From a virus, in IMG/VR virus record IMGVR_UViG_3300025860_000033, positions 1-42,358 of that record: 42,358 nt of DNA; one strand, 5' to 3'. The notes under the pieces were generated by a model. That model made no database searches. It saw only the letters and a list, made by a program, of their open reading frames with translations, and had not been told where the DNA came from. Position numbers and translations under genes: made by a program. This document shows, in pieces, positions 20,264 to 28,537 of this stretch. The stretch's first letter is position 1. Each line of letters begins with the position of its first letter.

Positions 20264-20276
20264 TTAGAAGCTACGT

Positions 20277-20330
20277 AGAGGTGCTCAGTTGGTGAGTGTT
20301 AATTAATGGTTCGAATCCATTTCACCTCTC
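20277..20330 (+). ncRNA. tRNA-like RNA lacking an anticodon arm
   Basis: AGAGGTG (20277-20283) pairs with CACCTCT (20323-20329) as an acceptor. CTCAGTTGGTGAG (20284-20296) is a typical D arm. AATGG-TTCGAAT-CCATT (20305-20321) is a perfect T arm. Only eight bases lie between D and T arms, so there is no anticodon arm. At about 54 nt it cannot decode. It begins 13 bases after the stop of paralogue B. Confidence 0.65.
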
Positions 20331-20368
20331 TAATGATTAAGTTAAGTTAGTAGGTAAGTAGTTGGTAA

Positions 20369-21576: not shown

Positions 21577-21683
21577 AGAGAGTTGGCGGAATTGGTAGAC
21601 GCAAGTGAGGTATTATATTCCGCAGATGTAGCAGCTGATGGAGTAAGTATAATACTATACAGGTTCGAATCCTGTACTCTCAC
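21577..21683 (+). ncRNA. tRNA-Leu-like RNA with abnormal anticodon region
   Basis: The acceptor AGAGAGT pairs with ACTCTCA except at the first position. TGGCGGAATTGGTAGACGC (21584-21602) is the usual bacterial tRNA-Leu D region and ACAGG-TTCGAAT-CCTGT (21659-21675) a perfect T arm. Between them there is no five-pair stem with seven-base loop. Instead GTATTAT/ATAATAC (21610-21616 with 21649-21655) forms a seven-pair helix around 32 bases. It could be a tRNA with a remodelled or interrupted anticodon arm. Confidence 0.62.
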
Positions 21684-21696
21684 ATAAAATTAAATT

Positions 21697-21867
21697 AAGC
21701 TCTTTGCTTGAAGATAAATAGTAATATCGGGAATGGTCGGCTAGATATTACAAACTACATTTCAGAGTAGTTGTTGTTTATTGAATGATAATTCGTGGAA
21801 AATTGAACCACTCTGTCAAAAATATCATTATCCCACATAAACTGAATAGTGGAGCAAAGAGTTTTTT
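21697..21867 (+). ncRNA. Structured RNA family E/H, copy 1
   Basis: AAGCTCTTTGC (21697-21707) pairs with GCAAAGAGTTT (21854-21864), eleven pairs including one G-U. It ends in a T-tract, as a free RNA might. Motifs shared with copy 2 (22137-22355) are TTGAAGATAAA at the 5' side, GGGAATGG, GTTTATTG, ATAATTCGT/ATAATCGT, and TATCCCAC near the 3' side. GGGA and TCCC may pair. The unit follows the tRNA-Leu-like element, as copy 2 follows another tRNA-like element. Confidence 0.65.
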
Positions 21868-22055: not shown

Positions 22056-22060
22056 AAAAT

Positions 22061-22125
22061 AGAGAGTGATAATAGGTCAGGCAGTGGTACGCTATTTGTC
22101 GCAGGTTCGAATCCTGTACTCTCTA
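22061..22125 (+). ncRNA. tRNA-like RNA with one arm in place of D and anticodon arms
   Basis: Acceptor AGAGAGT/ACTCTCT (22061-22067 with 22118-22124) is perfect and T arm GCAGG-TTCGAAT-CCTGT (22101-22117) is canonical. The 33 bases between them are too short for two arms; GATAATAG pairs imperfectly with CTATTTGTC to make a single arm with loop GTCAGGCAGTGGTACG. It has no anticodon arm. The 3' half is nearly identical to that of the element at 21577. Confidence 0.62.
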
Positions 22126-22136
22126 CAAATAAAATT

Positions 22137-22357
22137 AAGCTCTTTGATTGAAGATAAACAATATAGGCGTTGGGAATGGGAGAGGGTGAAAGGCTCTCTT
22201 GATATAAAACTGTATCAGCAGTTGTGTTTATTGTAGATGTATAATCGTTAGCATATAGGCTCCATGAGAGCATTGAAATGCACTGGATGCGCTCCAGAAG
22301 AGATTGGTGAAAATCCAATACAAACATATCCCACTGAAATTTGGGCAAAGAGTTTTT
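22137..22357 (+). ncRNA. Structured RNA family E/H, copy 2
   Basis: AAGCTCTTTG (22137-22146) pairs with CAAAGAGTTT (22346-22355), followed by T's. It is about 50 nt longer than copy 1. Shared motifs are TTGAAGATAAA, GGGAATGG, GTTTATTG, ATAATCGTTA and TATCCCAC-TGAA. Extra hairpins are present here: GAGAG/CTCTC after GGGAATGG, and ATTGG-TGAAAAT-CCAAT near the 3' end. Preserved motifs with changed helices suggest a functional RNA. Confidence 0.66.
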
Positions 22358-22389
22358 AATTAAAAATATTAACCATAAACATTAAAATC

Positions 22390-22606: not shown

Positions 22607-22713
22607 AAACTCTCATCCAATTGCAGGTGATTTAGACTATACGAGGTGAAGCAGTGAACTCTGCCGTCATAATTAGTTAGCTGTCAAGGTGCAACCTTGT
22701 GAGAGTTTTTTTT
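22607..22713 (+). ncRNA. Helix-closed RNA unit ending in a T-tract
   Basis: AAACTCTCA (22607-22615) pairs with TGAGAGTTT (22700-22708), followed by five more T. A hairpin CAAGG-TGCAA-CCTTG precedes the 3' strand. The long-range end helix plus T-tract matches the style of the E/H family, though the sequence differs. Confidence 0.55.
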
Positions 22714-26934: not shown

Positions 26935-27453
26935 ATGAAAAAACTAGAAACAAAAACACTAACTGTTCAAGAGATATTTAATTTAGTTAGCTCATACATT
27001 GACATAGATATAACCTTAAAAACAAGACAGGATGACTATGTTTATGCAAGAGCAGTATATTTTAAATTATGTCATGAAGAGAAGCACACATTGCAGTCAG
27101 CTGCAAAGCTAGTGAATAAAGATCATGCAACAGCTGTGCATGGTAGAAAAGTATTCTTAGACTTATTTAGTCAATTAAGATTTAGAAGATTTAAAGACCT
27201 GTACCTTAATTGCAAACTAGAAATGGATGCATTAAAGGATGATAATTTAAACTTAACTGATTTCTTACTTAGATTTAAGGAAGATATAAAGATCATGAGT
27301 TTAGAGAAGTATGTAAAATTTAAAGTAACAGTATTAAAAGGAATTAACGAACACAATGAAGCAAGAGAACAAGAAGATAATTACATTCGCGCTAAAGCTA
27401 GCGGCTATGACCCTTATTTCTTTAATCCTAGCCCAACTGATAAAGTAGGTTAA
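26935..27453 (+). CDS. DnaA domain IV-like DNA-binding protein
   Basis: A 172-residue protein. Residues about 36-75 follow the helix-turn-helix of the DnaA C-terminal domain: ARAVYFKLCHEEKHTLQSAA (38-57), then KDHATAVHGRKV (62-73) corresponding to the DnaA signature RDHSTVLHA. There is no AAA+ domain, so it is a DNA binder and not an initiator ATPase. It could bind DnaA-box-like sites for origin or transcription control. The remaining helical region (80-172) is unrecognised. It lies just before a 1.1 kb non-coding locus. The family call is by motif. Confidence 0.66.
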   Translation: MKKLETKTLTVQEIFNLVSSYIDIDITLKTRQDDYVYARAVYFKLCHEEKHTLQSAAKLVNKDHATAVHGRKVFLDLFSQLRFRRFKDLYLNCKLEMDALKDDNLNLTDFLLRFKEDIKIMSLEKYVKFKVTVLKGINEHNEAREQEDNYIRAKASGYDPYFFNPSPTDKVG

Positions 27454-27476
27454 ACATTAAATACATTTGTGAATAT
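27449..27476 (+). promoter_or_regulatory. Repeated promoter-like element, copy 1
   Basis: GGTTAAACATTAAATACATT and the following TGTGAATA match copy 2 at 27699-27726 at nearly every position. It contains TACATTTG (27462-27469), fitting TAnnTTTG, but GAT rather than TTG at the -33 position. It overlaps the stop of the preceding gene. Confidence 0.45.
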
Positions 27477-27688
27477 CTAGAAGGATATACGAGATACAAT
27501 CTATGCGAGTTAGATGTATTCACAATAAAAATACGGGCCAACTAAGATTGAAAATTTAGTTAACACTAGGCTAGTGTACCACACACGAAGAGAAATCAGG
27601 TAGTTCTGATAGTGGATACAGGGGTGCTGAGATGTCCCAGATTAATCATCTGCTCAAGAATAGGTAAGAGTTTGTAGTACCTAAATGA

Positions 27689-27726
27689 TTGCTTACAGGT
27701 TAAACATTGAATACCTTTGTGAATAT
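27689..27726 (+). promoter_or_regulatory. Bacteroidota-type promoter, repeat copy 2
   Basis: TTG (27689-27691), exactly 20 bases, then TACCTTTG (27712-27719): a perfect TTG-N20-TAnnTTTG match. The surrounding GGTTAAACATTGAATACC is the second copy of the repeat at 27449. Transcription would begin near 27725 and run through the RNA modules into the SPFH gene. Confidence 0.66.
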
Positions 27727-28085
27727 TAGAGATTAAGCAGGAGAAATTCTCAATACAATCTGCATACTCACATAAAGATACTAATCCTGAATTGACAGGA
27801 TGTTATTTAGCCACAAGAACGCTTCTGTAGATATACAGATGGTCTTTAGACAAAGCTCAGTATTGTAAAGAAATGGAGTAATCCTAGATGTATTTTTCCC
27901 TTTGAGAAAGGGAATTCCTTGAATCATTAGATAGCATAGATATGTGTCATATAAAATACACATGTTGAGGAAATCTAAGAATACAAATGAGCAAGTATCC
28001 GCGAGGACTTGGACTATTATATTGAAGGAGGATGGCTTCTTAACACTTTACGCTGAAATATGTGTCCTTTTAGTGAATATTATAG

Positions 28086-28250
28086 TTTTTCAGCAAGTAG
28101 TTAAATAGGAATTAACAGGCTTTTAATTTAGGTTAAAAAGTAATGGCACAATCTATTTAAATACGTGACCCTACTCTTATTAGTGAATTGAGTAAAGCCT
28201 TTTAATGACCGTAAATTGAGGTAACAGCTAATAAGAAAGAGGGTGCTAAA
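28086..28250 (+). ncRNA. RNA module N, copy 1
   Basis: Starts with CAGCAAGTAGTTAA and ends with helix ACCCT-(ACT)-CTTATTAG (28168-28183) paired to CTAATAAG-(AAAG)-AGGGT (28228-28244), then GCTAAA. The internal loop ACT/AAAG is identical in copy 2 while the distal helix has changed on both strands, i.e. compensatory substitution. Confidence 0.66.
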
Positions 28251-28342
28251 TACAAGTTGAAATCGACCAACTTTAATTAGAAGAGTATAGTAATATACTC
28301 CATAGATGCACCTGTATGAGATATGGTGCTACAAACTATGAG

Positions 28343-28537
28343 AAGTTCTCAGCAAGTAGTTAATGCGAAGAAGGTGCATAGTAATATGTATGAATGGCAA
28401 CGAGTTAATATGATACCTTGATAATAGACCCGTCTTAGAGGAAATTCCACGAACACCTCCGTAACTACGTGACCCTACTCTTTATCTAACCAAATAGGTT
28501 TAACCATAGAGGGATGATAAAGAAAGAGGGTGCTAAA
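28343..28537 (+). ncRNA. RNA module N, copy 2
   Basis: Starts with CAGCAAGTAGTTAA and ends with ACCCT-(ACT)-CTTTATC (28472-28486) paired to GATAAAG-(AAAG)-AGGGT (28516-28531), then GCTAAA. It ends 26 bases before the SPFH start, so it could also act in cis on that gene. Confidence 0.66.

Follow-up and report, generated by a model that had tools for sequence, protein, structure and literature searches.

The window, that is, the whole stretch of 42,358 nucleotides analysed here, contains two copies of a hairpin whose distal stem differs between the copies in sequence but not in pairing. The question is whether this hairpin is an RNA module in its own right, as the first-pass annotation proposed, whether its pairing is maintained by selection and in what kind of gene it resides. 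Every part named in that annotation is present in both copies (28168–28250 and 28472–28537). In copy 1, ACCCT (28168–28172), ACT (28173–28175) and CTTATTAG (28176–28183) on the 5' side are followed on the 3' side by CTAATAAG (28228–28235), AAAG (28236–28239) and AGGGT (28240–28244). In copy 2, the same order is formed by ACCCT (28472–28476), ACT (28477–28479) and CTTTATC (28480–28486), then GATAAAG (28516–28522), AAAG (28523–28526) and AGGGT (28527–28531). Both copies are indeed preceded by CAGCAAGTAGTTAA (28091–28104 and 28350–28363) and both fold as claimed, with a z-score of -2.6 for copy 1. The corresponding pattern, ACCCTACTCTT..AAGAAAGAGGGT, has two occurrences in the window against none in 100 dinucleotide shuffles, and no ORF of at least 60 amino acids runs across both copies on the plus strand.

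The proposed module, denoted N, does not stand alone: it is helix P6, the last helix and the 3' domain of a larger RNA, in which P1 to P5 and a pseudoknot lie upstream. Pattern scans of IMG/VR and a BLAST search against GenBank phages yielded 97 distinct copies, and model R2 added about 50 copies without use of the P6 pattern. The RNA is about 250–550 nt long, usually occurs in a single copy and contains helices P1, P2, P3, P3a, P5 and P6; the full-length copies L010 and L009 measure 249 and 250 nt. Its 5' half consists of AGGYUAAACAUUGA, P1, AUAAAGAUAC, P2 with a GNRA loop, and P3 enclosing P3a (loop CUUGAGAAA) and the variable arm P3b; the 3' half consists of CAAAUGAGUUCUCAGC, P5 and P6, both with variable tips, and GCUAA. 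The ends, AGGYUAAACAUUGA ... GGGUGCUAA, are sharp: at the 5' boundary, compared in 61 copies, position -1 is A in 58 and position 0 is G in 60. About a dozen copies lack the entire P5, both strands at once (CAGCUUGACCC). The A0 block was considered as a lone promoter and rejected, the P1 3' strand block being found at most 300 nt after 91 of its 107 occurrences; among the other occurrences listed, most are followed by variant P1 forms.

All six helices covary above shuffles. RNAalifold, applied unaided to 38 trimmed sequences, recovered five of the six (P2, P3, P3a, P5 and P6), with two-sided changes. For P2 and P3a taken together (alignment A1), 98.7% of the cells are paired and 46 cells are changed on both sides. 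Their covariation score is 0.515, whereas shuffles average 0.127, none of 500 being as high, and slid versions do not exceed 0.071. The P2 loop is GNRA in all 47 short forms (GUAA in 40, GAGA in four, GAAA in two and GUGA in one). For P5 and P6 (alignment A2), 93.6% of the cells are paired, none of 500 shuffles equals this value, and slid versions reach at most 46.5%. In P1, pairs 3 and 6 score above all 1000 shuffles, and some copies have the alternative GAUAGU/ACUAUC. As to the distal stem of P6, its pairing is kept across relatives: position 6 is paired in 73% of 83 distinct hairpins, whereas shuffles give 45% on average and never more than 59%. We regard it as almost certain that the RNA structure is real and that selection maintains its pairing.

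The proximal helix of P6, ACCCT/AGGGT, is nearly invariant and therefore yields little covariation signal. The conservation of the internal loop as seen in the first set of copies is circular and overstated, since P6 itself served to select the copies, and we rely on a P6-independent sample of 85 distinct hairpins from loci picked by the P3–P5 linker alone. The outer pairs ACC(C/U)..GGGU are present in 82 of them and the compensated ACCU/AGGU in two more, so that the outer ends are paired in 84 of 85, and we found essentially no relatives having the motif with unpaired flanks. The ACU/AAAG loop had been described as fixed. It is the same in both window copies and is the commonest form in the sample (36 of 85, or 38 with small register variants), but this amounts to only about 45%; the others have ACU/ACAAG (8), a two-nucleotide 5' bulge (6), ACU/AG or further variants. 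Docking of the GNRA loop into a P6 receptor was considered and found unsupported, as the P6 loop takes several forms while P2 stays GNRA. One P6 tip, a 79-nt hairpin, holds a tRNA-like minihelix, GGGCGAU..ACAGGUUUGAAUCCUGU..AUUGUCC, that is, one RNA scaffold nested in another.

The P3a loop (UGAGAA) is complementary to the linker UUCUCA. Both strands are nearly invariant, and hence most copies are silent on whether they pair. However, UGAGA is kept in different P3a frameworks, a G-U pair preserves the complementarity in the window, and L381, a distant relative, combines UGUGA with UCACA, a change on both sides. The UGAGA/UCUCA loop–linker pseudoknot is well supported, although not proven, as there is a single compensating event.

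While the core is constant, the tips of four arms, P1, P3b, P5 and P6, are hypervariable, ranging from a few to more than 100 nt and forming 51–74 clusters per arm at 80% identity. Comparison of 50 full-length copies gave 31 pairs with one or more arms in common, and in 27 of these pairs exactly one of the four is shared, which shows that the arms are exchanged between phages independently, in a cassette-like manner. The arms were also considered as structured units, but this was rejected, as they fold only slightly better than shuffles (mean z from -0.4 to -0.8). As their replacement, loss (P5) and the insertion of genes are tolerated, they are peripheral and not needed for the core fold.

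Genes inserted within the RNA encode endonucleases. A NUMOD4-HNH gene is found in L171 (by Pfam) and in L156 (by sequence), HNH-like genes in L185 and L024, and a GIY-YIG-like gene in L028 (all three by sequence). Such inserts are seen in few of the approximately 150 copies, at several sites. The L156 unit is inserted at CAAATGAGTTCT^CAGCAAG, and its end carries its own P2, P3, P3a and GAAGTTCT, so that the downstream half of the interrupted RNA is again provided with a complete 5' partner. Homing-endonuclease units able to repair the gene into which they insert have reportedly been described, the Allomyces atp6 type being an example. The insert here likewise brings a substitute for the portion that it displaces, namely P2-P3-P3a; the differences are that the restored gene is an RNA and that homing is putative.

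Against this background, the window RNA is a complete copy (copy B, containing copy 1 of P6) followed in tandem by copy C (containing copy 2), the 5' half of which probably comes from an endonuclease-borne replacement half. All parts are on the plus strand. Upstream of both there is an extra divergent 5' block with P1 (AGGTTAAACATTAAATACATTTGTGAATAT ... ATTCACAATAAAAATAC, 27447–27534), a 30-nt repeat of which is 93% identical to 27697–27726; nothing more of this copy can be recognised. Copy B starts with the conserved 5' block AGGTTAAACATTGAATACC and the P1 5' strand (27697–27727), delimited by the sharp 5' boundary of the family and by P1 covariation, and continues with the P1 3' strand and ACATAAAGATAC (27767–27781; alignment A1, pair counts). 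Its P2 arm has an extended branched form (27781–27887; R1 match at 27854–27914, E = 1.3e-3) with the terminal GNRA hairpin GGA-GUAA-UCC (27875–27884). P3 (27889–27985) pairs UGUAUU (27889–27894) with AAUACA (27980–27985), P3 and P3a being recovered by RNAalifold with two-sided changes, and P3a, CCCUUUGAGAAAGGG (27898–27912), lies inside P3 beside the variable arm P3b. Comparison with the consensus CAAATGAG-TTCTCAG reveals a 94-nt insert (27992–28085) after CAAATGAG, at the same joint that is occupied by endonuclease units in other phages. The pseudoknot strand UUUUUCA (28086–28092) is complementary to the P3a loop UGAGAAA with one G-U pair. It is followed by P5 with a variable tip (CAAGUAGUUAA ... 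UUUAAAUACGUG, 28091–28167; R2 match at 28087–28250, E = 2.1e-14), by P6, ACCCU-ACU-CUUAUUAG ... CUAAUAAG-AAAG-AGGGU (28168–28244; pattern, fold and R2 match), and by the conserved 3' tail GCTAAA (28245–28250; alignment A2).

Copy C opens with the hairpin AAGTTG-AAATCGAC-CAACTT (28252–28282), nearly identical in sequence to the end of the endonuclease gene in L156 and L171: it resembles the last codons (YKLKSTNFN*) of the HNH gene in these phages. Then come the P2 hairpin GAGUAUA-GUAA-UAUACUC with a GNRA loop (28283–28300), P3 formed by CAUAG (28301–28305) and CUAUG (28336–28340), and P3a, GCACC-UGUAUGAGAUAU-GGUGC (28308–28329). Compensated versions of the latter two helices, AAUGG/CCAUU and GCAAC/GUUGC, are found in L043, L185 and L141. 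The pseudoknot strand UUCUCA (28346–28351) pairs with UGAGA of the P3a loop, and the remainder is of the common kind: P5 with a variable tip (28350–28471; R2 match at 28330–28537, E = 1.1e-16), P6 (28472–28531; pattern, fold and R2 match) and the 3' tail GCTAAA (28532–28537; alignment A2). The 5' half (28252–28345) is of the same kind as the half carried by the L156 unit, and no endonuclease gene is left in it. We infer from these resemblances that the tandem pair probably descends from an endonuclease unit of the L156 type, and point mutation of a single copy is unlikely to be the whole origin of the two. This bears on the proposal that the pair is direct within-genome evidence of covariation. 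Selection for pairing is upheld, but the comparison of the two copies is weaker evidence than it looks, as arm tips are exchangeable cassettes and copy C has a different 5' half, one that in other phages accompanies an HNH homing-endonuclease gene. It is the comparison between genomes that carries the weight.

The search for the RNA elsewhere found about 150 loci in IMG/VR, Cellulophaga phage phi14:2 and one MAG contig. Phage phi14:2 is the sole BLAST match among GenBank phages. In GTDB, the P6 pattern has no match and the P3a–P3' pattern has three; one of these, L272 on a Sphingobacteriales MAG contig, is real by both models, whereas the other two have no R1 match. Model R1 has a match in 42 of 50 records (contigs of 27–373 kb), a single one in 41 of the 42, and R2 finds the RNA in seven of the remaining eight. 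The crAss-like terminase family phrog_6681 is present in 32 of the 50 records, and the window is crAss-like by its portal, terminase and GroEL families. The presence of the RNA is patchy: among TerL-chosen crAss-like contigs with a length of 69 kb or more, it was found in three of eight, some of these contigs being incomplete at the expected site, and it is absent from eight named gut, rodent and Flavobacterium relatives. The carriers are many aquatic crAss-like and some jumbo phages. In crAss001, R2 gave a weak match (E = 0.019) that falls inside a tail-fibre gene and was treated as chance. In phi14:2, the short ORFs gp007–gp009 (L002 3106–3431, KC821624.1), annotated opposite the RNA strand, are probably not genes. 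Terminase genes with in-frame TGA (six) or TAG (one) occur in the records of L035, L200 and L213 (G019, G042, G047), which suggests that stop codons are recoded in some of the phages carrying the RNA.

The genomic position is constant. Records in which R1 matches and the terminase gene is clear number 25, all of them crAss-like; in every one the RNA lies on the strand opposite to TerL and upstream of it, at 5.7–38 kb (circular distance for four records). All 43 tRNA genes within 1 kb of the RNA are on its strand, and 29% of copies have a tRNA gene at this distance against a background of 18%, an enrichment of about 1.6–2 fold. A tmRNA gene lies 48–61 nt downstream of the RNA in L009 (180–505), L038 (154–528) and L203 (1225–1547), and L168 (1454–1826) also has a phage tmRNA gene close downstream. 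The tmRNA tag peptides of L009 and L038 end in VAVAA. The 87 ORFs downstream of the RNA fall into 70 families; with such diversity, it does not behave as the leader or riboswitch of one gene. An ORF does start soon after the RNA 3' end in about half of the copies, and this leaves room for a role in cis.

Taken as a whole, these data incline us, with somewhat better than an even chance, to a trans-acting structured non-coding RNA gene of the phage tRNA/tmRNA cluster. The gene would belong to the early region that runs away from the terminase module and is rich in tRNA and tmRNA genes, and it would be transcribed together with these neighbours. Processing at the sharp ends, near GGUUAAACAUUGA and GGGUGCUAA, would release it as a separate RNA. 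It would fold independently into a compact tertiary core and, by analogy with what is presumed for GOLLD and ROOL, would act in trans during infection as a stable RNA or an RNP scaffold. A rather doubtful elaboration is that the four hypervariable arms on the scaffold form a repertoire, shuffled by recombination, of exchangeable parts for recognition, perhaps of host or rival-phage factors that themselves vary, and that the scaffold spreads by homologous exchange and by endonuclease units carrying the replacement half.

An unlikely alternative, albeit one to be taken seriously, is an RNA that acts in cis within a long early transcript, such as an antiterminator acting on RNA polymerase in the manner of HK022 put or Bacillus EAR. 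Location always on the early-gene strand, single copy number and a fixed place close to where the divergent early arm begins agree with it, and the unrelated downstream genes would be explained by service to the whole operon. However, the window RNA is situated about 9 kb inside a rightward gene array, away from its start, endonuclease genes within the RNA and tandem copies are awkward for a switch in nascent RNA, and, to our knowledge, the known antiterminator RNAs are smaller and have fewer arms. A further alternative is that the compact core, the sharp ends and the homing-endonuclease cargo are those of a self-splicing or self-cleaving ribozyme or a mobile intron-like element: HNH and GIY-YIG-like genes do sit inside the RNA (L171, L156, L185, L024, L028), and the GNRA loop, pseudoknot and conserved core recall the build of catalytic RNAs. 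We hold this to be improbable, given fixed synteny, a single copy and the rarity of endonuclease inserts among the approximately 150 copies, as well as the lack of any Rfam match, group I introns included, even at loose cut-offs; no interrupted or split gene was seen around the RNA in the loci read. Finally, the hairpins could be merely RNA-like and mark a DNA site of recombination or replication, for instance an origin. The arms do recombine, a nearby gene has a DnaA-C-like domain just under the Pfam cut-off, and the gene strand switches about 10 kb away, with the GC skew changing sign there. Nevertheless, several helices use G-U pairs (in P2, one pair is U-G in 17 of 30), GNRA loops and the pseudoknot are features of RNA, and the terminase gene and nearby tRNAs always have the same orientation with respect to the element, which makes a DNA site highly improbable.

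The RNA is apparently uncatalogued, as judged against Rfam 15 and the open-access literature, in which nothing on such an RNA was found. At gathering and loose cut-offs (E up to 1–10), no Rfam family matches it in the window, in 13 record stretches with relatives, or in L032 and L171; these scans otherwise picked up neighbouring tRNA and tmRNA genes or, below threshold, families of an unrelated kind. The models of GOLLD (RF02032) and ROOL (RF03087) had no match in the same scans. Neither did the group I intron model (RF00028), applied to whole records, match within the RNA, although the model works on these phages, as it has matches elsewhere in some of them. GOLLD is a large structured RNA of phages, frequently located close to tRNA islands, with a conserved part and a variable part able to hold tRNAs (PMC12286853); ROOL, from phages and prophages, also lies near tRNA islands, contains pseudoknots and has no known function (PMC12286853). 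Like GOLLD, our RNA is large, structured and adjoins tRNA genes, but it is shorter, and its core is scattered between four exchangeable arms, unlike the single variable 5' region of GOLLD. With ROOL it shares the neighbourhood of tRNA genes and a pseudoknot, but no match in sequence or structure. Compactness, a GNRA loop and hosted endonuclease genes are common to it and group I introns, whereas here no exons are seen and the locus is a fixed intergenic one. The kind is therefore known, and what sets the new RNA apart is its construction as a mosaic, together with endonuclease units that restore the gene.

A widespread structured RNA is hereby added to the crAss-like phages. Since it is carried by a cultivable pair, Cellulophaga baltica and phi14:2, its function is directly testable. 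The combination of a constant core, independently swapped arms and an endonuclease-borne replacement half is an unusual route of evolution for an RNA gene. Moreover, phage tRNA/tmRNA regions contain unannotated RNA genes that are now labelled as small hypothetical proteins.

The window has further RNA-like elements. Two tRNA-like sequences (20270–20331 and 22060–22125) have acceptor, D-like and T arms (GGTTCGAATCC), apparently without an anticodon arm, and a third one (21580–21690) has a long insert; none of the three is called by ARAGORN or Rfam. In L021 and L036, Rfam tRNA matches of 105–122 nt suggest enlarged tRNA-like genes of the same kind as the latter. A second RNA-like family, AAGCTCTTTG..GAAGATAAAYARTA..GCAAAGAGTTTT, with a variable interior (21697–21865 and 22137–22358), follows each tRNA-like element directly, and similar sequence is present in L012 and L014. 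A third RNA-like element, AAACTCTCATCCAATTGCAGG..AAGGTGCAACCTTGTGAGAGTTTT, is situated at 22609–22713 and occurs in L012 as well.
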